In this document: positions 28,146 through 62,101 of the stretch, in pieces | How positions within the stretch are numbered: the first letter of the stretch is position 1 | How the letters are laid out: each line of letters starts with the position of its first letter | From: a virus | DNA length: 64,000 nt | IMG/VR virus record: IMGVR_UViG_3300009703_002976 | Span: 23,168 to 87,167 of that record | Reading direction: 5' to 3' (one strand) | Position numbers and translations under genes: made by a program | Notes under the pieces: generated by a model | The model's input: the letters and a program-made list of their open reading frames with translations, nothing else | What the model was told of the DNA's origin: nothing | Database searches by the model: none

Positions 28146-28158
28146 TATATTTTCTCCT

Positions 28159-29112: not shown

Positions 29113-29117
29113 AAATA
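29110..29117 (+). promoter_or_regulatory. Possible late promoter (CATAAATA) for 29215
   Basis: One base differs from the T4 late consensus on the plus strand. It is 97 bases before the ATG at 29215 and overlaps the start of the minus-strand gene. It is a weak call because AT-rich sequence produces such octamers by chance. Confidence 0.25.
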
Positions 29118-29182
29118 GTCCATTGACAAGTGGTTCAAAATAGTGTAAACTATATAATTGTATATCTTGTTTATATTATATG

Positions 29183-29190
29183 TATTTATA
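29183..29190 (-). promoter_or_regulatory. Putative T4-type late promoter (TATAAATA) for 29112-27258
   Basis: This is an exact consensus octamer read on the minus strand, about 70 bases upstream of the ATG ending at 29112. It lies in the 102-base divergent spacer 29113-29214, which otherwise holds no gene. It supports late expression of the two minus-strand genes. Confidence 0.55.
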
Positions 29191-29214
29191 TTTATTTAGT
29201 CATCAAAAGTGCTT

Positions 29215-31875: not shown

Positions 31876-34800
31876 ATTATCTCTTGTAACTTCTTGTTAC
31901 AATGCTGAGTCTTATTTGGAAGAGTTAGCGAATTCTGTTTTTTATCAAAATTATGATCATTGGGAATGGATTCTTGCTGATGATTTTTCTGTTGATAATA
32001 CTCGTACATTAATGGAAGAATTAAAAAGAAAAGATTCTAGAATAAGAATTGTAGAACCCAAACATAAAAAAGAAATTTGGTGGAATCCACAACTTCATGC
32101 TGTTGGTGAAATAGTATGTCATTTAGATGCTGATGATGCAATTTTACCTGGAACATTTGATAAAATAATACATTATTTTAATTTATTTCCAGAAGCAGTT
32201 TTACTTCATTTTAATGCAAACAAATATTTTAATACCCTACCCCAAAATACAACTAATCTCTTTGATAATTTTAAAGACAATGTATACATGACAAGAGATA
32301 ACAATTCTTTTTTAGAAGGATTTGAAAAGTTGTGGCCCCAACGAACAAATATTTTTGGATATTTGAGAATATTTAAAAATTTACCAGGATTGCATTTTCC
32401 AGAACATAAAGATGATGATGCTTGTTTATCAAATGATGGACAATGGCTTTTACATTTAGAAAGATATGGAAAATGGTTAACTATTCCTAGAACATCATAT
32501 CTTGCAAGAGAACACGGTGAATGTGAAAACTTTAGAAACTGGAATCCTCGTGGAGAAGCACAATTAGTAATAAATGAAAAAAGAGATAGAAATAATTTTA
32601 TTTTAGAATATCCAAGAAATATTAAATATTTTGATGATATCTATGATTTAGCAGAATCTACTTATTTGAGCAAATTGAATTATGAAACAGAAAGAAAAAA
32701 TGTAAGTTTTTTAAATTTTAATTATGGTGAAGAACAACGAACAAAAGTAAAACAATTATTTTTTGATCATGATATAGTTTTTGAAAAGTATCTAGACAAT
32801 ATTTCTTATTATTTTGTTAAAATAAATTTAGAAGATACATCAGATACAATAAGAACAATTATATCTAAATTACCTGTAGCAAATTTTGAATTAAGTTTTT
32901 TTTCAGATAATGTGCATTTACATCAAAATAATCGTACACAATCAGACAATATTGAAAATATAAAAGAGACTATTACATCAGATGGTCGAAGTGTTTTTTG
33001 GTATGCACAAGATAATCGAATACAATTTATTTCTGCTGTTCAACAAATAAAAGATGTTTCTGATATTGTTTTATCTACAGGAAATGCATATGTTTTAGAA
33101 AGAAAAAAAGAAAGAGAAGAAGAAAATAATAATTTAAAAATAATGCAAGTACATATTGGTTGTGGGCTTGATATTCCACCCAAAGGATATGGGGGATTAG
33201 AAGAAGTCATGTATCAATATATGAGAGTAGCAAAGGGTAGAGGACATGAAGTAGAGTTAAAATGGTTAGATGATATAACGCAAAGTGATTTAGAAAAATA
33301 TGATGTATTTCATAATCATACTGGTGGATTTTATGATTTATTGAGAGATAGATGTATACCTTATATTTTTACAATGCATGATGCTTTTGTGAAAATACAT
33401 GGAAAAGATTCTCATTTTTATATGACTAATAATGAGACTATAAAAAATTCTTTATTCAGTTTAATTCCAACTGAAGATATGATAGATTTTTTTCTATATC
33501 CAGATAAGTTAAGAAGATTGCATCATGGTGTAGATACGAATTTTTATTTTCCTGTAAAAAACAAAAATGATGTACGATTGATTTGCGTGGGTGGAGGAGA
33601 TGATAGAAAAGGATTTCATTTAGCAGTTCAGGCGGCAAAAACATTAGGACTTCCTATAACGATTGTTGGACCAGATTCAATACATGCAGTATATAATAAA
33701 ACTTTTTATGATATTGTAGAAGAATGTAAAAATCATATTGATATAACTCTTACAGGTAATGTAGAAAAATATGAATTAAGAAATATATTAAATGAACATC
33801 ATATAATGATTCATCCAGCATCATTAGAAACAGGGCAACCCTGTCTTGCAGTTCTTGAAGCAATGGCGTGTGGATTACCTGTAGTTGGAACAATGCAAGA
33901 TAAAATTTCTTTGAAAGGATTTGAATTATGTACTAGAGAAGTTGATGATATTGTAAATAAGGTTAAACTTGTTTTAAATGACTATGATGAATATTCAAAG
34001 AAAGCAAGAGAATTTGCTAAAGAAAGAGATTGGGAAAATATTTTTGATGAATTGGAAAAATATTATTATGAAGCAAAAGAATTAAAATATACTAAGCCAT
34101 TTGATATGAAAGATAGATTGTTATTTGCGTATCAAAATACAGATGCAGATGGTAAAAATATTTTCGATTTAAATATGCAAAAAAATCCTTATTTGGCTGT
34201 TAAAGGATCTATTCCTGGAAATTATAAAATTAATTTTATTGATAGAGATACGGGTGGGGTTCATTATTCAAATGATGTTTCTGCGGGTGGCTGGGTTGCT
34301 TGTGGTATTGATTATTATGTTAATTGGAGAGTTGAAGCAATAAATGTTCAAACAGAAGAAATAGAATTTGAATATGAACAAGATTTTACAAATAAAAATA
34401 TTTTTGTTTGGTTTGATTCAGTAGCATTGGGAGATACTTTAGCTTGGGTACCAGTTGTTGAAGCATTTCGCAAGAAACATAAATGTAAAATGTATTGTAG
34501 TACATTTTGGAACGATTTAGTATCTGAATCATACCCAGAAATAACCTTTATAACCCCTGAATCTGGATTTAATGATTTTGTATCTTCTTATCGAATAGGT
34601 TTTTTTGAAGAAAGTCTTCAATCTCCAGTAGATATGAAAAATGTTTCGTTACAGAAATTATGTGCAGGTATTCTTGGTTTTAAAGATTTTGAAGAAACAA
34701 AATGTGAAATAATAGTTAAAGAAAGAGAGGAAGATCCACAATTAATTCGAAAGCCTTATGTGTGCATTGGTATGCAATCAACTGCTCAAGCAAAATATTG

Positions 34801-35275
34801 GAATTATCCAGGAGGATGGGATGAGGTGGTTGACTTTTTATCCAAAAAGGGATATAATATAGTATGTATAGATAAACACCATTCTTTTGGACAAGGAGAA
34901 TATTTTAATAAATCACCAAAAAATGTGATAGGAAGACATGAACGAACTTTAGATCAAACAATTGCTACTTTAAATGGTGCTGAATTTTTTATTGGATTGG
35001 GTTCTGGTTTATCGTGGTTGGCGTGGTCTTTAAATAAATATGTAGTAATGATATCGGGATTTAGTAATCCTATATCTGAATTCTCTTCAAAATGTTTTAG
35101 AATCCATAATGATACAGTTTGTAATAGTTGTTATAATCGGCATAAATTTGATCCCGGTGATTGGTTGTGGTGTCCAGATCATAAAAATACTGACAGAATG
35201 TTTGAATGCACAAAAAACATTGAACCAGTAAAAGTTTGTGATGCTATTGAAGAAGTAATAAAACTAATAGACTAA
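31862..35275 (+). CDS. Giant GT2 / GT4 / TibC-type heptosyltransferase fusion
   Basis: The 1137-residue protein starts with a GT2 domain (LSLVTSCYNAESYLEELANS; WILADDFSVDN; HLDADDAI) to about residue 300. From about 425 there is a GT4 domain (IPPKGYGGLEEVMYQY; GGGDDRKGFHLAVQA; E-AMACGLPVVGT). From about 755 a C-terminal unit resembles autotransporter strand-loop-strand O-heptosyltransferases (TibC/Aah). Its features are FVWFDSVALGDTLAWVPV, GMQSTAQAKYWNYPGGW, GLGSGLSWLAWSL, and a CNSC...WCPDHKNTDRMFECT cysteine finger, which binds iron in that family. Those enzymes glycosylate protein Ser residues with ADP-heptose. An O-glycosylated virion or host-surface protein is a reasonable but unproven target. 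Confidence 0.82.
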   Translation: MKRFKLSLVTSCYNAESYLEELANSVFYQNYDHWEWILADDFSVDNTRTLMEELKRKDSRIRIVEPKHKKEIWWNPQLHAVGEIVCHLDADDAILPGTFDKIIHYFNLFPEAVLLHFNANKYFNTLPQNTTNLFDNFKDNVYMTRDNNSFLEGFEKLWPQRTNIFGYLRIFKNLPGLHFPEHKDDDACLSNDGQWLLHLERYGKWLTIPRTSYLAREHGECENFRNWNPRGEAQLVINEKRDRNNFILEYPRNIKYFDDIYDLAESTYLSKLNYETERKNVSFLNFNYGEEQRTKVKQLFFDHDIVFEKYLDNISYYFVKINLEDTSDTIRTIISKLPVANFELSFFSDNVHLHQNNRTQSDNIENIKETITSDGRSVFWYAQDNRIQFISAVQQIKDVSDIVLSTGNAYVLERKKEREEENNNLKIMQVHIGCGLDIPPKGYGGLEEVMYQYMRVAKGRGHEVELKWLDDITQSDLEKYDVFHNHTGGFYDLLRDRCIPYIFTMHDAFVKIHGKDSHFYMTNNETIKNSLFSLIPTEDMIDFFLYPDKLRRLHHGVDTNFYFPVKNKNDVRLICVGGGDDRKGFHLAVQAAKTLGLPITIVGPDSIHAVYNKTFYDIVEECKNHIDITLTGNVEKYELRNILNEHHIMIHPASLETGQPCLAVLEAMACGLPVVGTMQDKISLKGFELCTREVDDIVNKVKLVLNDYDEYSKKAREFAKERDWENIFDELEKYYYEAKELKYTKPFDMKDRLLFAYQNTDADGKNIFDLNMQKNPYLAVKGSIPGNYKINFIDRDTGGVHYSNDVSAGGWVACGIDYYVNWRVEAINVQTEEIEFEYEQDFTNKNIFVWFDSVALGDTLAWVPVVEAFRKKHKCKMYCSTFWNDLVSESYPEITFITPESGFNDFVSSYRIGFFEESLQSPVDMKNVSLQKLCAGILGFKDFEETKCEIIVKEREEDPQLIRKPYVCIGMQSTAQAKYWNYPGGWDEVVDFLSKKGYNIVCIDKHHSFGQGEYFNKSPKNVIGRHERTLDQTIATLNGAEFFIGLGSGLSWLAWSLNKYVVMISGFSNPISEFSSKCFRIHNDTVCNSCYNRHKFDPGDWLWCPDHKNTDRMFECTKNIEPVKVCDAIEEVIKLID

Positions 35276-35277
35276 AA

Positions 35278-35502
35278 ATGATTAAAACAATAAAGCCTCA
35301 AGATTTTGCAATTATTATAGAAGATATTGTTGCTAATAAAAAAATGACTTATTTAGATGCAATATCTCATTACTGTGAAGAAACAAAAATGGAACCAGAA
35401 ACAGTTGGAAAACTTGTTCAAGGAAATTTAAAAGCCAAGCTAAGAGAAGAAGTTACGGCCTTGCATTTTCTCCCAAAAACTGCTACAATACCAGGACTAT
35501 GA
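35278..35502 (+). CDS. 33: Late transcription coactivator gp33
   Basis: The 74-residue protein fits T4-like gp33 of marine phages. It is small, helical, has a central 'YLDAISHYCEE' helix and ends in LHFLPKTATIPGL, like the LP-KT-x-LP tail of cyanophage gp33. gp33 bridges host RNA polymerase, the sigma-like gp55 and the gp45 clamp to activate late promoters. Synteny confirms the call: it directly precedes gp59 and gp32 and overlaps gp59 by 4 bases. Confidence 0.8.
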   Translation: MIKTIKPQDFAIIIEDIVANKKMTYLDAISHYCEETKMEPETVGKLVQGNLKAKLREEVTALHFLPKTATIPGL

Positions 35503-36119
35503 TAAAAATGGATCCGTTTGATTGTTATAAAGAATACGTTTCAATCAAGACTCATTTTCATGCTAATAAGTATGATTACTTTAAGCATAAAAAAAGAAAA
35601 ATCTCATTGAATGCTTTTAAAAAACGTAATGATCAATTCTTTTTTGTAAGATTGTCAAAAAGTTATAAAGATGATGAGATATCGAAATTCTTTGTTGCTA
35701 ACTTTATTGAGAATGAAAACTTGTGGATAGGTGATGCACTTGATTCACAAGCAGAAATGAAATATAAAGAATGGCAAAAAAGAATACAAAGCATGAGTTA
35801 TATTTTTAGCAATGATATTGAAAAATTGTTGAACAAAGAAGATTTTGAAAATTGGTTCAAAGTTGAAAAGGGTCAACATCCTTTATTGCTGAAACAAACG
35901 ATTGCTAAATATATTTGTATGGAAACTTTTTCCATACTTAATATGATACTTAACTTTGTTCCTGATTGGGATCAAAAGATAAAAGAAACTTTTGTCTGGC
36001 CTCAGTTTAGAGATAAAGTTTTAAAATACACTCCATTTTTGGAGGTGGATAAGACGAAATTTCGTAAAATACTACGAGATACAATTAATACAACGAATAT
36101 AACGAATATGAAAGGTTAA
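35499..36119 (+). CDS. 59: DNA helicase loader gp59
   Basis: The 206-residue protein has the gp59 opening (MDPFDCYKEYVSIKTHFHANKYDYFKH) and the all-helical, Lys/aromatic-rich composition of the T4 helicase assembly protein (217 residues in T4). gp59 binds forked DNA and gp32 and loads the gp41 helicase. It starts on the stop of gp33 (ATGA) and ends one base before gp32, the conserved T4-like order. It acts at the replication fork in the host cytoplasm. Confidence 0.85.
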   Translation: MIKMDPFDCYKEYVSIKTHFHANKYDYFKHKKRKISLNAFKKRNDQFFFVRLSKSYKDDEISKFFVANFIENENLWIGDALDSQAEMKYKEWQKRIQSMSYIFSNDIEKLLNKEDFENWFKVEKGQHPLLLKQTIAKYICMETFSILNMILNFVPDWDQKIKETFVWPQFRDKVLKYTPFLEVDKTKFRKILRDTINTTNITNMKG

Positions 36120-36120
36120 C

Positions 36121-37005
36121 ATGGCACAACTATCTGCACTAAAAAAATCCCGCAAATCCTTTATGCAAAATCTTCACAAAGAAATTGAGAAGATTGATAC
36201 TCCTTCTGAATCGAAGAGTTATATCGATGATCGATTTTGGAAGCCAGAAATAGATAAGTCTGGAAATGGATATGCTGTTATTCGATTTCTTCCCCCAGTA
36301 GATGGAGAAGATATTCCATGGGCGAGAGTTTTCAACCATGGTTTTCAAGGACCAACAGGTCTTTGGTACATTGAAAATTCTTTGACAACTCTTGGTAAGA
36401 AAGATCCTGTCTCAGAATATAATTCTCAACTCTGGAATTCTGGAATCGAGGCGAACAAAGAGATTGCTCGTAAGCAAAAACGCCGTCTAACTTATATCAG
36501 TAACATTTATATTGTTTCTGATTCAAAGAATCCTCAGAACGAAGGAAAAGTTTTTCTATACAAATTTGGAAAAAAGATTTTCGATAAAGTCAATGATTTG
36601 ATGAATCCCGAATTTGAAGATGAAACTCCTGTAAATCCTTTTGATCTTTGGGAAGGTGCGAACTTCAAATTGAAGATTCGTAAAGTTGAGGGTTATCAAA
36701 ATTATGATAAGAGTGAATTTGATAAACCTGCACAACTTGTAGAAGATGAAACTGAGCTTGAAAAAGTTTGGAATTCACAGTATGCTCTTACAGAATTTAC
36801 TGGTGATGATCAATTTAAGTCTTATGAGGATTTGAAAGCGAGATTAGATTCTGTTCTTGCAGTAGAAACTCCTCCTATTACTGAGCCTGTTTCTCGACCT
36901 GTTACTAAACCTAAAACTGCTGAAGATGTATCATCAGAAGATAAAACAACTTCTGAAGATGATGAAGATATGTCTTATTTTGCTAAGTTAGCAGAAGATA
37001 ATTAA
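36121..37005 (+). CDS. 32: Single-stranded DNA-binding protein gp32 lacking the T4 zinc ligands
   Basis: The 294-residue protein has the N-terminal basic LAST-like region (ALKKSRKSF), the core OB-fold signature (YAVIRFLPP; WARVFNHGFQ; GLWYIENSL; NEGKVFLYKFGKKIFDK) and a long acidic C-terminal tail (SSEDKTTSEDDEDM). The tail binds partner proteins in T4. The segment that holds His/Cys zinc ligands in T4 gp32 reads WYIENSLTTLGKKDPVSEYN here, with no Cys. It is preceded by AAAGG near the ATG. gp32 coats ssDNA in replication and recombination. Confidence 0.93.
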   Translation: MAQLSALKKSRKSFMQNLHKEIEKIDTPSESKSYIDDRFWKPEIDKSGNGYAVIRFLPPVDGEDIPWARVFNHGFQGPTGLWYIENSLTTLGKKDPVSEYNSQLWNSGIEANKEIARKQKRRLTYISNIYIVSDSKNPQNEGKVFLYKFGKKIFDKVNDLMNPEFEDETPVNPFDLWEGANFKLKIRKVEGYQNYDKSEFDKPAQLVEDETELEKVWNSQYALTEFTGDDQFKSYEDLKARLDSVLAVETPPITEPVSRPVTKPKTAEDVSSEDKTTSEDDEDMSYFAKLAEDN

Positions 37006-37006
37006 T

Positions 37007-37074
37007 CTAAGAGTGCTTAGTACTCACTTTAATTAGGGGGCCTGGAGTGTCGTTCCAGCGGCACGCCTCCTAAT
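37007..37074. terminator. GC-rich structured intergenic element between convergent gp32 and tape measure
   Basis: Between the gp32 stop (37005) and the minus-strand stop (37077), bases 37032-37041 pair with 37065-37074 (10 bp, one G-U). Inside, 37047-37052 pairs with 37059-37064 (6 bp, one G-U) around loop TTCCAG. A 5-base bulge CTGGA (37042-37046) is complementary to that loop. Upstream, CTAAG(agtg)CTTAG (37007-37020) is a second small hairpin. No U-run follows on either strand, so a classical intrinsic terminator is not certain. A bidirectional terminator is the most likely role from position. Confidence 0.5.
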
Positions 37075-37076
37075 CA

Positions 37077-38930
37077 TCAACGAGCCCCATCAAATAAACC
37101 ATCACCCATATAATTAAAGTCTACATTTTGTTGAATATCAGATCGAACAGTATTATGAGTAGTTTCTTGTAAAACTACATTATCTCCTCCTCCTCCTCGA
37201 TTAACTGATCTTCTTCTTGTCTCTTCCCATTGTGCCAATATTTGTTGTGCTTTTAATTCACGTAGTTTATGCAATTGGTCCACATCTACATTTCCTGCTT
37301 CTAACAATTTTTGCATAACTAGACTATTTTTTAATGCTCCTGGACCAATTTGATGATCTGGAATAGGTGGAGCGTTTTTACCTGGAAACCATATATCCCA
37401 TAAACCTCCAGCATTTTTTATTGCTGAAAGTATCGTTGACAGTCCTAAACTGGTTGTTGGACTAACTCCTTGAGCCCGTAATGCATCATCTATTACTTCT
37501 AAATCTTGTTGAGCTTGATGCATTTTTGTCTGTGTAGTTTGAGCCCCCCCATATGTAGCAAGTTCTTCTTCCAATTTCGCCGCTACTACTGCTTTCTTTT
37601 TGGATATACCAAAAAGTGCATCAAGTTCATCAGTCACGACTTGCAATGCATATCCTAGTGCCGCTCCTAAAATCATACCTCCAAGTATTCCAGGTATACT
37701 TCCTGCAGTTAAAAATGCACCAGCTATACCGCCCAAAGCTCCCCCAGCAACCATTTTCCTAGCATATGGACTGGCTTTAAAATATTCAACTAAAGCCTTT
37801 TTATAGGCATTTGCCATTCCTTTTCCTTCAGCTTTGTCAATTCTTAATGCTTCTGCTAAGACTGGTCCTGCTAATAGTCCAGCTCCAGCTCCAAGTATTA
37901 AACCAGCCATCATTCCTGCTGGACCAAATTTACTTAATACTAATGCACCAAAAAGTGCGCCACCTCCAGGAGCAAATTCTAAAACACCTTTCATTTGATC
38001 ACTTGAAAACCATTTCACTAAACCTGCAGTCATTGCCGATTTCCAATCTGCTCCAGTAGCTCTTTCTATCTCCATCATTTCTTTTATTGTACCAGCACCT
38101 ATTATTCCAATACCTGCTCCAAGAATTGCTCCAGCCACCATTCCTGCAGGACCAAATAACATTCCCATTTTACCAAACAGAGCCGCCCCGCCCAATCCCA
38201 TATAAGGAATAAAATTTTTGTATAAATGCTCTTTCACTTTATTCATTACATTTTTGGAATCTACTTTTGATTTATCTTCTGCAAAAATATGATTTAATCC
38301 AGTTAATGCCCCTCCAAGTACTCCGCCAATTATTGCTCCTCTTGGTCCCAATAAACCAAAACCGATCAAAGCTCCTTTTCCAGCACCTCCTGCCGCGGCT
38401 TCAGCAAGTGATTTATATGCTCCTCCTGATGGAGAAAAAAATGAATCTATAAATGCTCTAACGCCACCACTAAAGGTGTCTTGATCAAATCCTGCTTGTA
38501 ATGCTTGAACTAATGCTGGTCCTGCAACGAGTAAAGCAATACCTCTTGCTAATTTGGGCAATAGTGCCATACCTAAAGATGCGGGCATGAATCTTCTTAA
38601 TCCTCCAGGAATTCCCATAAGTGCAGTAGATAAGAAATTTCCCAACATTCCCATGAAACCCTTTCCTGAGAATCTTGGTAAATTCATCTTGGATTTCATA
38701 TTTAATTCTTTTCTGCCTTCTTTTTTTTCCTCAAGTTCGTTTTCTCTATCTTTTCGGTCCTTAACTTTATCTGCATTTACCCCTTTTAGCAGAAGTCCTC
38801 TCATACTGTATAATAAAGCGGACTGTACTTCCATCTGTTTTTCGATGGTTGCAATATTATTTTTATTTTGATCTTTTAGTTCATTGACAAGATTTTGAAA
38901 ATGAGAATAATTGTGGGGTTTACGTGCCAT
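37077..38930 (-). CDS. 29: Tape measure protein (gp29-like)
   Basis: The 617-residue protein (T4 gp29 has 590) sits directly after the gp26/gp51-like chaperone pair, the tape-measure position. A charged helical N-terminus (ENELEEKKEGRKELN) leads to four Gly/Ala/Leu hydrophobic units at about residues 180-216, 246-281, 322-357 and 396-430, such as FGPAGMVAGAILGAG and FGPAGMMAGLILGAG. A helical C-terminal part ends GDGLFDGAR. Tape measures set tail length and are threaded into the host. The symbol is by synteny and composition, not by direct match to T4 gp29. Confidence 0.7.
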   Translation of the reverse strand: MARKPHNYSHFQNLVNELKDQNKNNIATIEKQMEVQSALLYSMRGLLLKGVNADKVKDRKDRENELEEKKEGRKELNMKSKMNLPRFSGKGFMGMLGNFLSTALMGIPGGLRRFMPASLGMALLPKLARGIALLVAGPALVQALQAGFDQDTFSGGVRAFIDSFFSPSGGAYKSLAEAAAGGAGKGALIGFGLLGPRGAIIGGVLGGALTGLNHIFAEDKSKVDSKNVMNKVKEHLYKNFIPYMGLGGAALFGKMGMLFGPAGMVAGAILGAGIGIIGAGTIKEMMEIERATGADWKSAMTAGLVKWFSSDQMKGVLEFAPGGGALFGALVLSKFGPAGMMAGLILGAGAGLLAGPVLAEALRIDKAEGKGMANAYKKALVEYFKASPYARKMVAGGALGGIAGAFLTAGSIPGILGGMILGAALGYALQVVTDELDALFGISKKKAVVAAKLEEELATYGGAQTTQTKMHQAQQDLEVIDDALRAQGVSPTTSLGLSTILSAIKNAGGLWDIWFPGKNAPPIPDHQIGPGALKNSLVMQKLLEAGNVDVDQLHKLRELKAQQILAQWEETRRRSVNRGGGGDNVVLQETTHNTVRSDIQQNVDFNYMGDGLFDGAR

Positions 38931-38932
38931 TA

Positions 38933-39121
38933 TTAGGCCCTTCTTTCTTGATCTTTTTGTTTACTATTTTCTTGTTCTATATGAGCAATTAGCATTTCTA
39001 CGTATATGTCTCTTTCAAAAGGCATTAAATTTTCTATTTCTGTTAAACTATATTTATGATGTTGCATCAATTGAAACGTTAGTTGATAATAGTTTGCTAA
39101 AGTATTATGACTACACATCAT
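38933..39121 (-). CDS. 51: gp51-like baseplate hub assembly / tape-measure chaperone (T-like)
   Basis: The 62-residue protein contains HHKYSLTEIENLMPFERDIYVEMLIAHIEQE. This resembles small proteins labelled gp51 (hub assembly catalyst) in marine T4-like phages, although T4 gp51 itself is much longer. Its ATG overlaps the gp26 stop (ATGA), and it lies in the -1 frame relative to gp26 immediately after a T9 run. It may be made separately, as a gp26-gp51 fusion by frameshifting, or both. Tape measure follows after 2 bases. Confidence 0.65.
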   Translation of the reverse strand: MMCSHNTLANYYQLTFQLMQHHKYSLTEIENLMPFERDIYVEMLIAHIEQENSKQKDQERRA

Positions 39122-39861
39122 AAAAAAAAATCGCCAATTCCATTCAAAGTTTGTTTTTCATGACATTTACATTTAGAACATGTAAATTCAATATCGTGTA
39201 ATATAGCAGGCATTGTGCCAAAAAACAGTTTAAGTTTTTCAAATTGATCACTTGATAAACTACTAATAAATTCTTCCAGTTCTTCTTTATTATATTCACC
39301 TGCATTAAATACTTCTTCACCAGAATATATGTTATCAATACAATCAATAACAATACTAAACAATTCTGCTACAGTTGAAGTTTTTTCATTTTCCATGTCT
39401 GCTAAACGATTATAAACTTCCATTGTTGGATATTTCATTTCAACAGTAATTGTATCTGTTAATTTAATGTTCTTAGAATGTTTATCGTTTGTAGTAAGTT
39501 TTATATCAGCAAGATTTATTTTTACTTTTGTTTGAGCATCACAAGATTCCCCATTACTATTTGTTTCTTCTCGATGTTTTATCATTAGTTCAACAACTTC
39601 ACCAACAGATTTTGCTCTTATATTTAATAATGCCATCTGTAAATCAAATAATGGTAATTCTTCAGCATTTACTTCTTCTGATAAAATACAATTATTGATT
39701 ATTTGTTTTGAAGTTCTTACTATTTCATCTTGTTCTCCCCCCTCCATAGCCATCAATAAAAGTTTCTCTTCTTTGACTAGAAAGGGTCTGTAAGTTACTG
39801 GTTTTTTTATTGAAGTCAAGTTCATTGTAAATGTAGGTGCTTCAATTTTGGGTAAACTCAT
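39118..39861 (-). CDS. 26: Baseplate hub subunit / tape-measure chaperone gp26
   Basis: The 247-residue protein opens SLPKIEAPTFTMNLTSIKKPVTYRPFLVKEEKLLLMA and contains ELPLFDLQMALLNIRAKSVGE. This is the typical core of the T4 gp26 baseplate family (Pfam T4_baseplate type). The C-terminus has a CSKCKCHEKQTL zinc-ribbon-like motif ending in GIGDFFL. A GGAGA ribosome binding site precedes the ATG. gp26 acts in hub assembly and, by position before gp51 and the tape measure, probably as part of a chaperone pair. It ends in T9-A-TGA; see the frameshift finding. Confidence 0.85.
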   Translation of the reverse strand: MSLPKIEAPTFTMNLTSIKKPVTYRPFLVKEEKLLLMAMEGGEQDEIVRTSKQIINNCILSEEVNAEELPLFDLQMALLNIRAKSVGEVVELMIKHREETNSNGESCDAQTKVKINLADIKLTTNDKHSKNIKLTDTITVEMKYPTMEVYNRLADMENEKTSTVAELFSIVIDCIDNIYSGEEVFNAGEYNKEELEEFISSLSSDQFEKLKLFFGTMPAILHDIEFTCSKCKCHEKQTLNGIGDFFL

Positions 39862-39886
39862 TATATCTCCATTTTTTAATTATTTT

Positions 39887-40429
39887 TTACGCAACACTAG
39901 GGGGATTGGCTCCAGTTGAAATTCTGCTCATTTCCCATTTTCGATATGCAAAGGTAACACTAAGTCTTGCATATTCATTATTTTGTGACCATCCCAAATT
40001 TATTGCTCCCACATTTAGGGGAAATGCTTCTCTAAATCTTATTCCATAACTTCTAACATTTTCTTCTGTAAATGTTCTTAACCAAATATCAGTTGTATAA
40101 TCATTATAATATGAAGCATCATATAGATCGGGATCAACTATATCATTTTGCCAATTGTCAAAAAACTCTTTTTCTTTCCATCCCTCTGCAGAACAAATAA
40201 ATGTCATTGTAGTATCAATGAACATTTGACCATAACCTATTTTTCTTACTGGTCCATATAATTTATCTTCAACTGTAAGCATAGTTTTACCAGGAAGTTC
40301 TGCTTGTTCGCATTGAAATACGCTAAAATCAGAATCTTGTCTACCGATATAGACTTCATATCTATTTAATGGTGCGGGACCATGTTTAACATTTAATTTG
40401 CTTCTAAAATTATCTACACTTAAAGGCAT
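39887..40429 (-). CDS. Tail-tube-fold protein (gp19-like)
   Basis: The 180-residue protein has the T4-like tail tube signature: LSVDNFRSKLN start, QAELPGKTM, a YGP-x-RKIGY strand, an aromatic FFDNWQNDI helix and late strands EYARLSVTFAYRKWEM. T4-type tube and tube-initiator proteins share this fold. Because the major tube gp19 is usually next to the sheath (not seen here), this is more likely a hub/tube-related paralogue than the main tube. It is in a minus-strand run with gp4, gp26, gp51 and tape measure. The exact T4 equivalent is not assigned. Confidence 0.7.
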   Translation of the reverse strand: MPLSVDNFRSKLNVKHGPAPLNRYEVYIGRQDSDFSVFQCEQAELPGKTMLTVEDKLYGPVRKIGYGQMFIDTTMTFICSAEGWKEKEFFDNWQNDIVDPDLYDASYYNDYTTDIWLRTFTEENVRSYGIRFREAFPLNVGAINLGWSQNNEYARLSVTFAYRKWEMSRISTGANPPSVA

Positions 40430-41010
40430 TAAATCATTCTCCTACTATCTCCCCAAACAACGAGTTTGTTTTCTTTTTTGAATCTTTCTGTTGGTAAAAA
40501 TAATGCAATTTCTTTTTCATCATCATCTACAATTACAACTCTAGATGTTATGTGTTTATATAGATATCTTTTTACTGTTGGTTTAATTTGTTTAATTCTT
40601 GCAAGTCCTTCATAATTTACTGATTTTGACCGATCAATAGCATCCATTAATTTTGCCCTAAGTAATGGAGGAAGATAATGAAAATTTAAACCAAGAAAAC
40701 CATTTCCATACATTTTTACGCACATGATTAATGGGAATCTATCATAATACTTCATTTTATCTTTAGTTTTTGGATCATAAAAATATGATGCCATTGCACC
40801 AGGTGCTATTGTTCCCTTACCTGATTTTTTAGCAGTTTTATAAAATTCATCTGCAGTATCTACTTCACTAAATCTACTTCTTAATTCTGCTCTTAAAGCG
40901 CCAACTTTTCTGCGAAACCATTGTGATGCATTACTTGTTCTTGGTTGTCCTTCATTTCTTCTTATTGCAGTCTTTAATTTATCTAAAAACGTTTGATCTT
41001 GTTGTGCCAT
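40429..41010 (-). CDS. Conserved T4-like phage protein, possibly gp2-like
   Basis: The 193-residue protein has a basic N-terminus and a core YYDRFPLIMCVKMYGNGFLG, then LNFHYLPPLLRAKLMD. I recognise this from T4-like marine phages, where it has been labelled unknown or DNA-end-protector (gp2)-like. T4 gene 2 lies beside gene 4, and here the gene is next to gp4, 12 bases downstream of it. This supports but does not prove the link. A C-terminal VVWGDSRR follows. It overlaps the tail-tube-fold gene by 1 base. Confidence 0.5.
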   Translation of the reverse strand: MAQQDQTFLDKLKTAIRRNEGQPRTSNASQWFRRKVGALRAELRSRFSEVDTADEFYKTAKKSGKGTIAPGAMASYFYDPKTKDKMKYYDRFPLIMCVKMYGNGFLGLNFHYLPPLLRAKLMDAIDRSKSVNYEGLARIKQIKPTVKRYLYKHITSRVVIVDDDEKEIALFLPTERFKKENKLVVWGDSRRMI

Positions 41011-41022
41011 AATTATATTTAG

Positions 41023-41454
41023 TTAAAAAAGATGATCTTCTGTAATGATTTTAAATCTCCATTTTCTGTCGCTACAATACTCTGTAGCCGCTTTCCATTT
41101 TGCTTCATTTACACCAAATGTGTATACTTCAGATAAATATCTTCTAGTGATTCTTTTAGGTTTTTTGGGTTGTGATAGTTGCTTTTTGGGTTTAACTTCT
41201 ATAAGCACACATTCTGTTAATCCATTTTCTTTTTTTATTTTGATCCAAAAATCAGGAAAATATCTATGTATTCGTTTATCAATAGGAGATTTGTAGGGAA
41301 CAACTATCTCTTCACTTGACCATTCAATAACATCGGGATTGTTTTCACAATAATTCATGAATTTTTTTTCCCATAAAGAACGGTAAGTAACTTTAGTAGG
41401 ATCTCCCCGATATTTTTTCAAATTTTTTATTTTATATTTTCCTTTGTAACTCAT
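41023..41454 (-). CDS. 4: Head completion protein gp4 (nuclease-fold)
   Basis: The 143-residue protein matches T4 gp4 (gene 50/4) closely in motif order: MSYKGKYKIKNLKKYRGDPT, YRSLWEKKFMNYC, EWSSEEIVVPY, HRYFPDFW and IEVKPKKQ. The PD...E-x-K arrangement belongs to TnsA/Vsr-like PD-(D/E)XK endonucleases. T4 gp4 is about 150 residues and finishes heads after packaging. The ATG at 41454 was chosen because the longer frame from 41511 adds a spurious hydrophobic leader that crosses the divergent gene start. It heads the minus-strand run. Confidence 0.88.
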   Translation of the reverse strand: MSYKGKYKIKNLKKYRGDPTKVTYRSLWEKKFMNYCENNPDVIEWSSEEIVVPYKSPIDKRIHRYFPDFWIKIKKENGLTECVLIEVKPKKQLSQPKKPKRITRRYLSEVYTFGVNEAKWKAATEYCSDRKWRFKIITEDHLF

Positions 41455-41484
41455 GCTAAATATTATGTATATAACGTAGAGGAG
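41455..41484 (+). promoter_or_regulatory. Possible late promoter (GCTAAATA) and RBS for 41489
   Basis: In the 34-base divergent spacer, GCTAAATA (41455-41462) resembles the late octamer. AGAGGAG (41478-41484) is a strong ribosome binding site 4 bases before the ATG. The promoter assignment is weak; the RBS is clear. Confidence 0.45.
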
Positions 41485-41488
41485 AATA

Positions 41489-42376
41489 ATGGCCCAGAAT
41501 CCGGCAACCAAATTAAGAGAAGTAGTAAATGTAAAAACTGGTGTTAGAATATATAGATTTCCAGAAAATATAGGATCAACTACAGCAGAACCAGAATCAA
41601 GAAAATTTTGTTTATTTCGTTTTCATAATGTAGATGATAGTGGAAATCCAGGAGAAACATCTACTTGTGTAGTATTGCCTTTTCCAGAAATAAATGATGC
41701 GATTAATATAAAATATGAGAATGTTGAATTTGATGTTGTTGGAGCAATTGCAGTAGGGGCCTCGGCGGGAAATGTAAGTATAGATCGTTTATCGGATATT
41801 GCAAAAACAGGATTAAAATCTTTTAATAGAGATTCTTTTGCACGAATAGCCGCAGATACAGTATTAAGTGGAACTCCTGGACTAAAAGCAGGAGTTGCAA
41901 AAGGATTAAATACAATACAAAATCCTTATATTACAAACGTATTTAATAGTTCAGGATTTAGAGATTTTTCTTTTACTTTTACTCTTATACCAAAAAGGGC
42001 TCATGAAAGTGATCATATACAAGATATTATTAGAACTTTTAAAGAAGCAATGTTACCCGAAAAAAAATTAATAAAAGAAGGAAGAAATATAAATCAGAGT
42101 ACAGGAATTATAAAAATGCCAGATAAAGTTGATATTACTTTTTTTCCTACTACAGGAGCAGATTATAACAAAAATAAATCAATAATAAAAATTCGAAATG
42201 CAGTCGTAACAGATTTGACAGTTGAATTTTCATCAGGAACACAAAATCCTACTTTTTTTAAAGACACGGGTGCTCCTTTATCTGCAGTATTGAATGTATC
42301 AGTTAAAGAAACCGAAATTTATACTAAAGAAAGTCTTATAAAAGATTATCCAGAACACAGAAAGGATTTCAAATAG
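41489..42376 (+). CDS. Baseplate tail-tube initiator/cap protein (gp54/gp48-like)
   Basis: The 295-residue protein contains strands and Gly turns typical of T4 gp48/gp54, which cap the baseplate and start the tube: KFCLFRFHNVDDSG; IKYENVEFDVV; NPYITNVFNSSGFRDFSFTFTLIP; a PEKKLI segment; and a late KVDITFFPT strand. T4 gp54 is 320 and gp48 364 residues; the size is nearer gp54. A strong RBS precedes it. It is followed 4 bases later by a related 356-residue protein, as gp48 and gp54 are related and adjacent in T4. Confidence 0.7.
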   Translation: MAQNPATKLREVVNVKTGVRIYRFPENIGSTTAEPESRKFCLFRFHNVDDSGNPGETSTCVVLPFPEINDAINIKYENVEFDVVGAIAVGASAGNVSIDRLSDIAKTGLKSFNRDSFARIAADTVLSGTPGLKAGVAKGLNTIQNPYITNVFNSSGFRDFSFTFTLIPKRAHESDHIQDIIRTFKEAMLPEKKLIKEGRNINQSTGIIKMPDKVDITFFPTTGADYNKNKSIIKIRNAVVTDLTVEFSSGTQNPTFFKDTGAPLSAVLNVSVKETEIYTKESLIKDYPEHRKDFK

Positions 42377-42380
42377 TAAA

Positions 42381-43451
42381 ATGGAACCATATGCTAATTT
42401 GAATAGAATAGTAGGACTTAAAAAAAGATATGAATATCCTAAAGGTATAGGTAGTACTAAAGGACTACATCATTTTATGTTAATAAAAGAATTAAGATGG
42501 AAAAAACCTGAAAAAGGAAGTGATGCGTTTAGTGGAAGTGGAATAACAAATTTTGAAAATGTTACTGGTGGAAATGAATCAAAAGATTTTTATGAACCTG
42601 GGAAAAATTTTATTTTACATTTGCCACCTGGTTCATTAAAAACACAATATTCTGCTGATTATGCTGATGTAAATTTGGGTATTTTTGGAGATATATTATC
42701 ACAAAATGCAATGCAAATAACAGAAGATATGAAAACACATTTTTCAGAATTTGCAAAAGGTGATACAGGATTTATACAAAATACGATGAAAATGTATAAT
42801 GAATTAAGAAAAGATATGACAGATAAAATTATGCCATATTATGATAGTGAAGATTTTAAAGGAGATTTTGTAAATAGAATTAGATTTAATGTAGCAACCG
42901 CTGTTGGTGCTTTAGCTCCTTCACAGGCAAAAGGAGAACAAATAGCATCTATGTCTATGAGAGCGGCAAGAAATCCATATACTTCTCTCATATTTACAGG
43001 AATAAAAAAATTACGAACACATAATTTTAATTTTGAATTTAATCCTAAAGATGCAAACGAATCTAGTACTCTTATGTCAATTATATTAAATTTAAAATAT
43101 GGAATGTTACCAGGATTAGATAGATTAACTATTAAAAAAGGAGCGAATTCAAATATTATTGCTCAAACACCAACTGCTCATCCAGATCATAAACGTATGC
43201 ATACTATGTCTATTCAAAATGAAATGAATTCTGCTTTTTTTACTTATCCCCATAATTATAGAATTCAATTTTTTAGTAATGCTGGAGAGAACAAATATTT
43301 GTATCGTATAGGAAATTCTTTTTTAGTATCACTTAAAGCAAAATATGCACCTAGATTTTTTGAAGAAAATGGAATGCCAACAACAATAGGTTTACAACTT
43401 CAGTTTAAAGAAAACTTTGCTATTGATAGATCACAAGCGGAGACTTACTAA
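42381..43451 (+). CDS. Baseplate tail-tube cap/initiator protein (gp48/gp54-like)
   Basis: The 356-residue protein shares with its neighbour the phrase NPYTSLIFTGIKKLRTHNFNF (compare NPYITNVFNSSGFRDFSFTF), a shared fold landmark of the gp48/gp54 pair. The size matches T4 gp48 (364). It has a Gly/Ser-rich insert (EKGSDAFSGSGITN) and ends with RFFEENGMPTTIGLQLQFKE. By size this would be gp48 and 41489 gp54; the pairing could be reversed. It overlaps gp53 by 1 base. Confidence 0.7.
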   Translation: MEPYANLNRIVGLKKRYEYPKGIGSTKGLHHFMLIKELRWKKPEKGSDAFSGSGITNFENVTGGNESKDFYEPGKNFILHLPPGSLKTQYSADYADVNLGIFGDILSQNAMQITEDMKTHFSEFAKGDTGFIQNTMKMYNELRKDMTDKIMPYYDSEDFKGDFVNRIRFNVATAVGALAPSQAKGEQIASMSMRAARNPYTSLIFTGIKKLRTHNFNFEFNPKDANESSTLMSIILNLKYGMLPGLDRLTIKKGANSNIIAQTPTAHPDHKRMHTMSIQNEMNSAFFTYPHNYRIQFFSNAGENKYLYRIGNSFLVSLKAKYAPRFFEENGMPTTIGLQLQFKENFAIDRSQAETY

Positions 43452-44029
43452 TGTCAGATTTTTTTAAGAATTATAGTACATTTTATTATAATATGGATAA
43501 GGTTAAACCAATTAGAGGGAAACTTGCGACAAATTTATTGTCTAGAGTAAACATAACTAATGAAGTTTTAAAAAATGTTAGATCATATTATCCGTATCGA
43601 ATAAAAGAACATGAAAGACCAGATATTATAGCACAAGAATATTATGGATCTAGTGATCTAGTTTTTTTAATATTTTTAGCAAATAATATTCAAGATCCTT
43701 TATATGATTGGCCATTATTTGGAAACGAATTGACAAATCTTATTAAAGAAAAGTATGGTTCAGTTGATTCTGCAAAAACAGATGTGCATCATTATGAACA
43801 AATATTAAGAAGTGGTTCTAATAAAACAGTGGATACTCCTAAGATTTTAGAAAAAGTTGCGATTGTTGATAAAGAATCATATGATCTTCTTGATGCAACA
43901 AAAAGAAAAATAATATACAATTATGATTATGAGATTATGAAAAACAATGCAAAAAAAGAAATTGTTTTAATAGAAAATACTTTTTCTAAACAAATTTTAA
44001 CTGAACTAAGAAGTCTTTATGCTAATTAA
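43451..44029 (+). CDS. 53: Baseplate wedge protein gp53
   Basis: The 192-residue protein (T4 gp53: 196) contains YYPYRIKEHERPDIIAQEYY, GSSDLVFLIFLANNI and DPLYDWPLF. This is the core pattern of the gp53 family, a LysM-like fold joining wedges to the hub. Position between tube-cap proteins and the gp27-like hub matches marine T4-like phages. It starts 1 base before the previous stop and its TAA overlaps the next ATG (TAATG). Confidence 0.88.
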   Translation: MSDFFKNYSTFYYNMDKVKPIRGKLATNLLSRVNITNEVLKNVRSYYPYRIKEHERPDIIAQEYYGSSDLVFLIFLANNIQDPLYDWPLFGNELTNLIKEKYGSVDSAKTDVHHYEQILRSGSNKTVDTPKILEKVAIVDKESYDLLDATKRKIIYNYDYEIMKNNAKKEIVLIENTFSKQILTELRSLYAN

Positions 44030-45789
44030 TGGAATATAATATGTCAGAATATTCAGATATAGGAACTTCAGAATTTAACAAATCCGAATCAAAATTTAGT
44101 ACTGAAGCAGAATGGACATTAACCTTTATTAATTATAGGGGAAGAGAATATGTAGTTAATTCTGAAGAAAATTCAGTAATTCTTGGTTTTACAATAAACG
44201 AATCTTTATTTGAAAGTAATGTTATAACTGGTGATATAAAAATACTTGATGGTGCTGGATTAGATGAAAGAATTCCTATTATCGGACAAGAAAAAGTTCG
44301 TATTAAATTAAAAAATAAATTATTGGGTGGATCAATGTGGGATGCTGAATATACGATTATTAAAAGATCCGCCACTATAGAAGATGGACCATCAAAGTTT
44401 TTTGTTTTGGATTTTTGTTCAGATGAATTTATTGCAAATTTAAGAAACAGAGTATCTAAATCATATAAATCACAATTAGCTTCTCATATAATTAAAGACA
44501 TATATGATAATTATGTAAAAAATGATCATTTTGTAAAAGATCAAAAACTATTAAATTATGATGAAAAAGGAGATTCTGATGGAACTTTTTATGGAATGCA
44601 TTTTGTATTTCCTACAGTAAGACCTTTTAAAGCAATAAGCATGGTAGTTAAAAAATCTGTTGCTTCAAATGTTGAAATGAGGCAAAGACAAGTAAGTGCA
44701 AATTTTGGTAAATTTTTATTTTATGAAAATAAATTTGGTTTTTATTTTAAAGCATTGTCTGATTTATTACATCCCTTGGTAACAACATCGGAAGCGGAAA
44801 TTGAAGAATCGGAAATAGAAGCATTAGAATCACAGGGCACAGATTCTGGTCAACAAAATCCCCTTACTAGAGAAAAAGGAAAAAGAATAGCTCGTCCTCC
44901 TACGACATCATCAATTGAAATACCAGTAGCCTCTTATGTAATAAGACCAGCAGATCATATTGGTATATCTGCAGAAGAAAAAGAATTTTTAGTTGTTCGA
45001 TTTAAATTACAATCTACTTTTAATGTTTTAAATAATTTAGTAGAAGGAATGTATTCTGGAAGATTATTAACATATGATCCAACAACTCAAAGAATAGGTT
45101 CTATAAATCAATCATCAGCTACACCATATATTCCTAAAGATGATAAAGAAGATGAAAGATTTACTAATGGTTTATATAAAGCAAATCATAAGGCAACGTA
45201 TTATGAATATGATTATTGGAATCAATTTTCAAATTTTAGACATGTTGGCGGTGAAAGAAATCCTCTAACAAATGATCATCATTATGGAGTAGATAAATCT
45301 GAATCATTTTACAAATATGTATCAACAAATTTTAATCATAATGAAAAAATGATTACAAAATTATTGCAAAATGTTATGACAGATAATGATAAGGGAGCAA
45401 TTTCCGTAGACAAACAAGTAGAAAGATGGTTGATTCAGAGTTATTCTCAATCAAGACAATTGAAAAATATAATAACACAAGTAACTGTGCCTGGTGATCA
45501 TAATAGAGTTATTGGAGAAATAATAGAATTGAAATATCCTTCAAGTTATTATCCAAATGAAGAACATTCGTTTTATACAGGACATTATTTAATAACAAAA
45601 ATTCAACATATAATTACAAATAATAGTTATTTAACAACAATGGAATTAGCAAAAGATACATTATTTACTAGACTTTATAGACATATTTTTGATGATGCAA
45701 ATGAAATGATATTTGATCCAGAAGCTGTGGTGGGTTTAGATCAAGGTCTTAATCCCAAACATGGTATGGAAGGAGGATATAGTGAATAG
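44029..45789 (+). CDS. 27: Baseplate hub protein (gp27-like)
   Basis: The 586-residue protein (T4 gp27: 391) has a hub-type N-terminal beta domain (ILGFTINESLFESNVITGDI; KVRIKLKNKL) and a mid section like the hub core (VVKKSVASNVEMRQRQV). The C-terminal strands include VTVPGDHNRVIGEIIELKYP and GHYLITKIQH. An acidic insert at about residues 250-285 (EAEIEESEIEALES) helps explain the extra length. An alternative start is ATG 44041. Position immediately before gp5 is the T4 hub position. gp27 forms the ring to which the gp5 spike attaches. Confidence 0.72.
   Translation: MEYNMSEYSDIGTSEFNKSESKFSTEAEWTLTFINYRGREYVVNSEENSVILGFTINESLFESNVITGDIKILDGAGLDERIPIIGQEKVRIKLKNKLLGGSMWDAEYTIIKRSATIEDGPSKFFVLDFCSDEFIANLRNRVSKSYKSQLASHIIKDIYDNYVKNDHFVKDQKLLNYDEKGDSDGTFYGMHFVFPTVRPFKAISMVVKKSVASNVEMRQRQVSANFGKFLFYENKFGFYFKALSDLLHPLVTTSEAEIEESEIEALESQGTDSGQQNPLTREKGKRIARPPTTSSIEIPVASYVIRPADHIGISAEEKEFLVVRFKLQSTFNVLNNLVEGMYSGRLLTYDPTTQRIGSINQSSATPYIPKDDKEDERFTNGLYKANHKATYYEYDYWNQFSNFRHVGGERNPLTNDHHYGVDKSESFYKYVSTNFNHNEKMITKLLQNVMTDNDKGAISVDKQVERWLIQSYSQSRQLKNIITQVTVPGDHNRVIGEIIELKYPSSYYPNEEHSFYTGHYLITKIQHIITNNSYLTTMELAKDTLFTRLYRHIFDDANEMIFDPEAVVGLDQGLNPKHGMEGGYSE
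45770..45776 (+). promoter_or_regulatory. Shine-Dalgarno (AAGGAGG) deciding the gp5 start
   Basis: A full AAGGAGG lies 5 bases before GTG 45782. This favours GTG as the real gp5 start over the in-frame ATG 45761, which lies before the SD. Confidence 0.75.
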
Positions 45790-47797
45790 TTCAGATTTTT
45801 TAAATGTTAATGATGCAAAAGATTTTATGGGAGCTGAAGGTTTTGTTTGGTTTTATGGTGTTGTAGAAGATAGAAAAGATCCTCTTTTTCTTGGAAGAGT
45901 TAAAGTAAGATGTATTGGATTTCATACAGATGATAAAACATTAATACCAACAGAGGATCTTCCTTGGGCCGATGTTATTCAACCAATAACATCAGCCGCA
46001 ATATCTGGAATCGGAACTACTCCTACTGGATTAGTAGAAGGTACTCATGTGCTTGGATTTTTTAGAGATGGACAAGAAGCACAAGAGCCAGTAATTTTAG
46101 GAACATCTGGAGGAGTACCTGAAAATATTTCAAACCCTGATAGAGGATTTCATGATTCTAGAACAATTGAAGAAAGAAAAAATGCTCCTTATCCTCCATT
46201 ATATATCGATAGATTTAATTCGGGCATTCCTGCAAAAGTTGTAGAACATTCTCAAGTAGAAGAACAATCTACTTATGAATTTGTTGGAGAAACTCCAATG
46301 AAGGATGGTAAATTATGGTATGGAAAAAATGAAGACGAATCTAAAATTCAAGCAAACATTTATAAACGTAAAGATTCAGATAAACCAGAAGATAAACCTA
46401 AAAAAGCAAATACTTCACCGATGTTGACGGCTCAACTTTATTCTAGAAATCCAGATGAAAATAGAATGATATATGATAAAGATGGTATACCAATTATGTC
46501 TTTACCGTCAACAAATTTACTTGGTTTAAATAGAATAAAATTTATAAGAAAATATGAATCTAATGTAACTCCTCATCCTGCTTCTTCGGTTCATCCACAT
46601 GCTCAAATTGTTTTGAATGCTCATAGAATTGCAGGAAGTTTAATGTCAACTCAGAATAATTTGCATAGGGGAGTTGAAAAAGCTATGGGAGAACCTTGGG
46701 GAGTACCACCAGATGGTTTTAATCCTGAATATCCTTATAATCATGTCACATATACTGAAAGCGGACATTTATTTGAATTAGATGATTCTCCTGGTGCTGA
46801 AAGAATTAGATTGTTACATAGAACTCAAAGTTTTCTTGAATTTTTACCAGACGGTTCTAGAGTTGATAATGTTGTTGGAAAGTCTTATTTTCTTGCAGAT
46901 GCGGATGTACATTCTCACATTTATGGTGATGATGTAAAACATGTTAAAGGAGCGATGAATCATATTTATAATTCTAGGGGAGCAGGAACTAATAAAATGC
47001 TTTTTGCTGGTGATGGTGATGTAAATTTAGAAGTTACTAAAGGAGATTATAATATTGATTTAAAAGATGGTGAGATGACAATTAAAGCAAGAAATCTTAA
47101 AATCATAGGAACAGCAATTGATCCAGGAGCATCAAAATTTCAATTACAACAAATGTCACCAGAATTGGGTGATTCGCAGTTAGCATTTAAGACAGAAGCA
47201 GAAAGTTGGGCTACTGATACTGGAGATTTTTCGTTAAATTGTTCAAATGAAAATTTATCTGTTACAGGAAATGCTAAAACAAATGTAGGTGCAGATAATG
47301 AAATAACAGTAGAAGGAAGTTCAAGGGAAGTAGTAAAGGGTATATTTGGAATGGGTATGAAAAAAGTATGTGTAGCAAAACCAATTACTCTTGAAGCAAC
47401 AAATCCATCAGCGGGTATTAAATTACATAGTGGTCCTGGAGGAGTACCAACATCTTTAGAATTAGATGCGGGTGGAATGGCTCTCAGTACTAAATTAGGC
47501 AATGTTACTGCAGATGCAACTATAGGAAAAATTGAATTAACAGCAGGAACAAGTTTTTCTCTTGAAACGGGTACAGAAATAGACCTTAAAAATAAAAAAG
47601 GTAATATTAAAATAGATACTACAGGACTTATTTCTATGAAAGGAATGGGTTCTGATATTCATACTTTATTAAAAAAATTATCAATGGCATTACAAAATAT
47701 GACTCATCCAACTCCTGCTGGTCCAAGTGGTCCAGCAACGAATATGAGTGAAATTATACAATTTGATTTAGAAATAGATAAGGTGTTTCAAGCATGA
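45782..47797 (+). CDS. 5: Baseplate spike gp5 (OB-fold / beta-helix, no lysozyme seen)
   Basis: The 671-residue protein starts at a GTG behind a perfect SD. It has a gp5/VgrG-type N-terminal OB domain (GFVWFYGVVEDRKDPLFLGR; VRCIGFHTDD; LPWADVIQPI; GFFRDGQEAQEPVILGT). A long middle follows, then a C-terminal beta-helix-like region of alternating strands (GDYNIDLKDGEMTIKARNLK ... TAGTSFSLETGTEIDLKNKK). T4 gp5 carries a lysozyme between these parts; I see no lysozyme-like E/D/T block. The protein punctures the envelope. The 56-residue gene overlaps its stop. Confidence 0.87.
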   Translation: MNSSDFLNVNDAKDFMGAEGFVWFYGVVEDRKDPLFLGRVKVRCIGFHTDDKTLIPTEDLPWADVIQPITSAAISGIGTTPTGLVEGTHVLGFFRDGQEAQEPVILGTSGGVPENISNPDRGFHDSRTIEERKNAPYPPLYIDRFNSGIPAKVVEHSQVEEQSTYEFVGETPMKDGKLWYGKNEDESKIQANIYKRKDSDKPEDKPKKANTSPMLTAQLYSRNPDENRMIYDKDGIPIMSLPSTNLLGLNRIKFIRKYESNVTPHPASSVHPHAQIVLNAHRIAGSLMSTQNNLHRGVEKAMGEPWGVPPDGFNPEYPYNHVTYTESGHLFELDDSPGAERIRLLHRTQSFLEFLPDGSRVDNVVGKSYFLADADVHSHIYGDDVKHVKGAMNHIYNSRGAGTNKMLFAGDGDVNLEVTKGDYNIDLKDGEMTIKARNLKIIGTAIDPGASKFQLQQMSPELGDSQLAFKTEAESWATDTGDFSLNCSNENLSVTGNAKTNVGADNEITVEGSSREVVKGIFGMGMKKVCVAKPITLEATNPSAGIKLHSGPGGVPTSLELDAGGMALSTKLGNVTADATIGKIELTAGTSFSLETGTEIDLKNKKGNIKIDTTGLISMKGMGSDIHTLLKKLSMALQNMTHPTPAGPSGPATNMSEIIQFDLEIDKVFQA

Positions 47798-47964
47798 GTA
47801 AAAAAGAAGAAGAAATTATTTTAGAACAAAAACCAATAGTTAATGGTAATATGACAGAAGTTTTAGAAAAGGTTTTAAATTTCAATAATGATTATTTAAA
47901 ATTTTTAAAAAGTGAATTGGAAACTGCTAAAAAAATACAATTAGAAGAAAGAAATAATGGCTGA
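47794..47964 (+). CDS. Small coiled-coil protein between gp5 and a large structural gene
   Basis: A 56-residue frame (MSKKEEEIILEQKPIVNGNM...) starts on the gp5 stop (ATGA) and ends 8 bases inside the next gene. It is strongly helical and charged with heptad-like Leu spacing (EVLEKVLNF-NNDYLKFLKSELE), suggesting a coiled coil. It has no recognised family. Coupled overlaps on both sides and the absence of any other use for this gap support a real gene. It could be a small baseplate or hub accessory. Confidence 0.6.
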   Translation: MSKKEEEIILEQKPIVNGNMTEVLEKVLNFNNDYLKFLKSELETAKKIQLEERNNG

Positions 47965-55248: not shown

Positions 55249-55261
55249 AAAAGGAAATAAC

Positions 55262-55531: not shown

Positions 55532-55541
55532 AGTAAATAGA

Positions 55542-55549
55542 ACTAAATA
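55542..55549 (+). promoter_or_regulatory. Candidate late promoter-like octamer (ACTAAATA) just before gp25
   Basis: It is followed directly by AACATATG, so it lies 5 bases before the gp25 ATG. The string TAAATAAACATATGGCTA is shared with the gp8 start (62102). No Shine-Dalgarno is present between the two elements. Confidence 0.4.
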
Positions 55550-55554
55550 AACAT

Positions 55555-57897: not shown

Positions 57898-57898
57898 A

Positions 57899-62096: not shown

Positions 62097-62101
62097 AACA
62101 T

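Follow-up and report, generated by a model that had tools for sequence, protein, structure and literature searches.

The gp26 gene and the small gp51-like open reading frame (ORF) that follows it on the minus strand of the 64,000-nucleotide stretch of DNA analysed here (the window) are very probably one recoded locus, from which a pair of tail assembly chaperones of the lambda G/G-T kind would be made by -1 ribosomal frameshifting. The virus, a marine T4-like bacteriophage, appears to make two versions of the chaperone from one gene. The -1 phase of the two frames, the slippery heptamer at the end of gp26, the synonymous constraint on its codons, the missing start codons of the second ORF and the chaperone-like fold of the first together argue that gp26/gp51 is most likely a G/G-T pair. 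From these features we infer slippage, its efficiency and the functions of the products: most ribosomes would stop at the end of gp26 and release the short form of the chaperone (TAC-N, lambda G-like), and a minority would slip back one base with their tRNAs on a U-run heptamer, which in the window would be U UUU UUU or U UUU UUA and in relatives mostly U UUU UUC. Ribosomes that had slipped would read on through the gp51-like domain in the -1 frame, and their product would be a longer protein, TAC-NC, of the G-T type. If the two parts act as they do in lambda, G would coat the tape-measure protein and T would recruit tail-tube subunits.

At the junction the minus strand (39140..39111) reads GAATTGGCGA TTTTTTTTTA TGATGTGTAG. 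The last codons of gp26 are GGC GAT TTT TTT TTA TGA, and the next ORF opens with ATG ATG TGT in the -1 frame relative to gp26. A first-pass annotation of the window had described the run of nine T, this gp26 ending and the -1 frame of the next gene, and all three were confirmed from the sequence. Two slippery heptamers, T TTT TTT and T TTT TTA, are in frame within the window's slip site (Table 1).

Table 1. Positions of the gp26/gp51 locus and adjoining features in the window.
Feature	Position	Strand	Basis
Tail-tube-like protein, just upstream of gp26	39887..40429	-	phrog_45 tail tube, E 3.7e-34
gp26 / TAC-N (lambda G-like) gene, 247 aa; stop TGA at 39120..39118	39118..39861	-	PF12322, phrog_150, fold
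Slippery site T9A	39121..39130	-	sequence; in-frame T TTT TT in 154/154 loci; synonymous constraint
T9 run	39130..39122	-	sequence
In-frame heptamer T TTT TTT	39130..39124	-	sequence
In-frame heptamer T TTT TTA	39127..39121	-	sequence
gp51-like / T domain, 62 aa, -1 frame, opening from 39121; C-terminal part of predicted TAC-NC fusion	38933..39121	-	phrog_634, phase
Possible downstream stem, 39124..39115 with 39062..39053, starting at the slip site	39053..39124	-	MFE -14.5 kcal/mol, z -2.73
617-aa ORF directly after the gp26/gp51 pair, tape-measure candidate	37077..38930	-	position, size and Gly/Ala-rich make-up only

Relatives were drawn from IMG/VR as 80 loci with gp26 and the best 80 with gp51 among the matches listed, which with the window gave 161 sequences; some contigs were in both sets, and one entry (L001) was the window over gp26. 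Both parts were required on the plus strand at E <= 1e-3, and 154 of the 161 passed (L006, L020, L021, L022, L027, L074 and L128 were dropped). Removal of sequences at least 90% alike over 300 nt left 113 representatives. The gp51 part lay in the -1 frame in all 154 loci with both parts, and gp26 ended in every one of them with an in-frame T TTT TT(C/T/A), the last base being C in 87, T in 43 and A in 24 (69, 37 and 7 among the representatives). Elsewhere in gp26 of the representatives, an in-frame T TTT TT occurred only 16 times in 26,283 codons, or 0.14 per gene, so that its presence at every junction exceeds what chance would give. Because the loci are related, these counts are not independent and exact probabilities would be meaningless. 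The T run was 6, 7, 8 or 9 long in 66, 28, 9 and 10 of the 113 representatives, and the 19 members of the window's clade all had the nine-T run. The heptamer, not the nine-T run, is the conserved element. Its distance to the anchor, the conserved start of the gp51 domain, was 14 nt in 95 of the 113 representatives, 11 nt in 17 and 17 nt in one, and the gp26 stop codon lay anywhere from 0 to 9 codons past it. The earlier proposal that a -1 slip would fuse gp26 to the gp51-like protein gains support from the frame and in-frame heptamer of all 154 loci; that annotation had named a lack of conservation of the T run or frame in relatives as refuting it, and in the relatives the -1 frame and an in-frame heptamer of at least six T held throughout, and the length of nine did not.

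The same survey bears on two explanations that do not involve the ribosome. Homopolymers are error-prone, and a sequencing or assembly error in the T run could have split one continuous gene in two; however, all 154 loci, which come from many samples, have the same -1 phase, and cultured isolates with only six T show it too, so that independent relatives already exclude an error, whose probability is negligible. Transcriptional slippage would have RNA polymerase add or skip a U on the nine T, leaving some mRNAs in the fused frame. Bacterial polymerases begin slipping at about nine T and find six too short, and the nine-T run kept throughout the window's clade is about as long as this mechanism would need. 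The 66 representatives with six T only, which nonetheless keep the exact heptamer phase, and a phase that stays constant while the run length varies make slippage by the polymerase highly improbable, and we favor -1 frameshifting during translation.

The codons of the heptamer are under synonymous constraint. Its first Phe codon was TTT in all 113 representatives, compared with 932 of the 1,278 Phe codons elsewhere in the same genes, and the codon before this TTT also ended in T in 113 of 113, the residue itself varying (S, D, N, A or R). The other FF pairs of these genes (n=111) were encoded as TTC TTT 56 times, TTT TTT 39 times, TTC TTC 9 times and TTT TTC 7 times. When 226 columns were scored for synonymous conservation, the columns of these two codons, the first Phe and the one before it, took the 3rd and 6th ranks; the remaining columns in the top six were two near the 5' end (2 and 13) and two in mid-gene (93 and 95).

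The first-pass annotation had offered as its alternative a plain 4-base ATGA overlap, in which a separate gp51 would be made by termination-reinitiation at the ATG one base before the gp26 stop. The window does carry ATG ATG at the junction, a point against frameshifting, and GenBank records annotate two genes. The first of these ATGs was ATG in 11 of the 19 clade members but ATA in the other 8, and no ATG, GTG or TTG at all was present between the slip site and the gp51 domain in 93 of 154 loci (76 of 113 representatives). Where representatives did have an in-frame junction ATG, an SD-like 4-mer lay 5-12 nt upstream in 0 of 33, versus 80 of 94 gp26 starts. With start codons missing from most loci and properly spaced SD-like elements from the junction ATGs that exist, a separate start of gp51 translation, with or without coupling, fails as a general mechanism. 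Coupled initiation also leaves the heptamer and its synonymous constraint unexplained, and we regard it as very unlikely, if somewhat less so than slippage by the polymerase.

Upstream of the heptamer, at a distance of 9-20 nt, 85 of 113 representatives had SD-like 4-mers, with a peak at -13; when the same interval was shifted further upstream, the mean was 11.2. In dnaX, an SD-like element at such spacing stimulates -1 shifts. Elements at this spacing are too distant to serve initiation at the domain, and they fit a stimulator of the dnaX type. No SD-like 4-mer was present upstream of the window's own slip site, which speaks against frameshifting there, and 6 of the 19 members of its clade had one. 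Downstream, the window has a possible stem, which is weak and not conserved. Folding z values, calculated from every second representative (57 of 113) with shuffled controls, averaged -1.1 at offsets 0, 7 and 12 compared with -0.35, -0.04 and -0.04 at -120, -60 and +60. RNAalifold returned no consensus structure in the 113 representatives, nor in the 95 with equal spacing, and for this reason we claim no structural element. A downstream stimulatory structure was thus considered and rejected, although folding was mildly better than in shuffled sequences, and the lack of a conserved one is a further point against frameshifting.

By sequence, both parts are members of the T4 gp26/gp51 family (PF12322, phrog_150 and phrog_634). 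The gp26 protein matched PF12322 (T4_baseplate) at E 2.4e-58 and phrog_150 at E 1.1e-63, and a PDB sequence search with it gave no relative. In an AlphaFold2 model of gp26 (54 sequences, pLDDT 89.4, pTM 0.82), residues 1-86 aligned with the HK97 tail assembly chaperone 2ob9 at Z 7.5 (rmsd 4.2, 84 aligned), a Z below 8 that may reflect a common arrangement. The next best structures were 3fgx (Z 7.2) and YqbN (3klu, Z 7.0), both of which we take to be tail assembly chaperone relatives; all other rows were at 4.5 or lower, and the top three all cover the N-terminal 86-96 residues of gp26. Plain Foldseek of the model against the PDB found nothing at E <= 0.001 (2ob9 was at rank 29 with E 2.0), and a viral library returned mainly other gp26-like and uncharacterised proteins. 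The model thus provides moderate evidence for a tail assembly chaperone fold in the N-terminal domain of gp26. A search for a second full-length G-T gene in the 87,167-base record, which may be a fragment, found a single gp26-like place.

The gp51-like ORF matched phrog_634, 'baseplate hub assembly catalyst', at E 3.9e-27, and the match covers only positions 58-118 of 121. Its predicted structure has three helices (pLDDT 81, pTM 0.47). In these phages 'gp51' is most likely the C-terminal (T) domain of the G-T protein and not a separate gene, and the label 'gp51, baseplate hub assembly catalyst' would then cover a domain and not a standalone gene. In the phage Melnitz-2, the annotated gp51 (L171 2549..2692) begins within the domain and lacks its N-terminal part, as expected if gp51 has no real start codon.

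The arrangement resembles lambda G/G-T, which is also known from P2, HK97 and mycobacteriophages, in its short chaperone ORF with a -1 overlapping second ORF, in the slippery heptamer that ends the first ORF, in the adjoining tail genes and in the likeness of the N-terminal fold to the HK97 chaperone. It differs in having a U-run heptamer instead of lambda's G GGA AAG, in the greater length of gp26 (247 aa), which has a Cys-containing C-terminal part, and in the next gene, which is only a positional candidate for the tape measure. The pair had been placed in the chaperone position before the tape measure by the first-pass annotation; the 617-aa ORF that comes next is a tape-measure candidate by position, size and composition only, and lacks sequence support as one. 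It had no significant match to T4 gp29, the Cr30 and phiM12 tape-measure candidates or PDB sequences, none in Pfam or in 50,697 phage records, and a weak one only in PHROG (E 0.029). In Cr30 and phiM12, tape-measure-like proteins are annotated one small ORF further on. By eye, the 617-aa ORF shows repeated glycine-zipper-like segments.

The survey also took in 25 records of phages other than T4 (L163-L182 and L197-L201), picked because they were diverse or oddly annotated, and 18 of them contain the heptamer. They include Kyanoviridae, phiM12, Cr30, Rhizobium I34 (with G as the last base), Melnitz-2, DLP6, Ps15, ACP17, Aeromonas AS-yj, Acinetobacter SH-Ab 15599, OC, Vibrio D484 and nt-1. A joined gp26-gp51 gene is annotated in none of the 25 records, and 8 have no gene annotated in the T-domain frame (L163, L175, L176, L177, L178, L180, L181 and L198). 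The other 7 isolates lack the heptamer, which counts against frameshifting: four Ackermannviridae (L176, L197, L198 and L199) have ATT TTC AT, and the Vibrio phages K355, K364 and VPALA (L178, L200 and L181) have CTT TTY. By eye, all seven still show a T-like -1 frame, unannotated in several records. In three of them, a profile matched at E 2.8e-5 in Mutine, one of the Ackermannviridae, and weakly in K355 (E 0.096) and VPALA (E 0.38). The slip site of these seven phages, if any, is non-canonical. A scan with gp26 of Vibrio K355 found no relatives.

T4 itself has the family without the overlap. Its gp26 (208 aa) and gp51 (249 aa) are encoded on opposite strands, and both match PF12322, the same family as in the window, where there is one G gene whose T domain is in the -1 frame. 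The 113 representatives were fused in silico, and a profile of these fusions was compared with a small target set that included shuffled controls (best shuffled E 1.2). It matched T4 gp51 end to end, with the N part, the junction and the T domain all aligned (E 2.9e-15), and T4 gp26 over the G part only (E 2.3e-21), so that T4 gp26 corresponds to the G part and T4 gp51 to the whole fusion. T4 gp26 ends GAG TTC TTT GAG TTA CTA TAA, in which the FF pair is retained and the heptamer is absent. On the basis of these profile matches and the absence of the heptamer, T4 appears to make both chaperone forms from two paralogous genes, a two-gene version of the same pair. In a tree of 33 proteins, T4-type gp26 and gp51 grouped at 91/91, a support value short of what the tool counts as strong, and every frameshift locus, those of two Straboviridae (AS-yj and nt-1) among them, fell outside this group; as to the direction of change between frameshift and two genes, the tree is no more than suggestive. 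The tree lacks the N part of the L195 gp51, whose match is broken. In that record (1501..2246), the match to T4-type gp51 is split between two frames, with one piece at 1501-1860 and the other at 1836-2246, through either a sequencing error or a real disruption.

We offer one joint proposal for the wider T4 superfamily, tentatively and with slightly less than even confidence. In it, the U-run -1 frameshift would be the ancestral and near-universal route to G-T, boosted in most lineages by an internal SD-like element about 10 nt upstream; T4, with its two-gene version, would have escaped from this route secondarily and lost the slippery site; and Ackermannviridae and some Vibrio phages would have moved to a non-canonical -1 site (ATT TTC or CTT TTY), behind which lies a hidden T domain that annotations often miss.

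Related arrangements have been reported. A passage in Atkins et al. 2016 (PMC5009743) describes G-T frameshifting as conserved 'except T4'. Excerpts of the PRFect paper (PMC10885494) credit Vladimirov, Gautam and Davidson 2022 with some T4-like phages that have a short and a fused long TAC gene, and excerpts of the paper on Pseudomonas phage Adele (PMC12846349) credit Vladimirov 2022 with T4-like phages whose TAC-N genes have poly-T slippery sites. As excerpted, the latter paper also places a -1 frameshift at a T-rich GTTTTT at the TAC-N end in the TAC of Vandenendeviridae/Andersonviridae, the second TAC ORF being routinely annotated as a separate gene or missed. The loci studied here share with this Adele-type TAC the -1 shift at a T-rich motif ending TAC-N and the second ORF that is annotated separately or missed, but the Adele type, as described in those excerpts, belongs to other phage families and has a shorter motif, and the likeness drawn here is one of locus layout. 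Going by these excerpts, the literature already attributes such an arrangement in T4-like phages to work of 2022. Our literature search found no paper naming the gp26/gp51 frameshift itself, and the coverage of cyanophage-type loci in Vladimirov 2022 lay outside its reach; we therefore do not claim the frameshift as unpublished. Because the T4 part was credited in 2022, what is new here is limited to the breadth of the survey, the tests of synonymous constraint and of start codons, the SD-like element found before the slip site and the exceptions listed. The locus and its relatives would place gp26/gp51 of T4-like marine phages in the G/G-T scheme.

Two further observations concern the rest of the window. 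ARAGORN, run on the whole of it (1..64000), found no tRNA genes. A 1137-aa ORF on the plus strand (31862..35275) adjoins the tail gene block and, by eye, appears to combine several glycosyltransferase domains in one protein.
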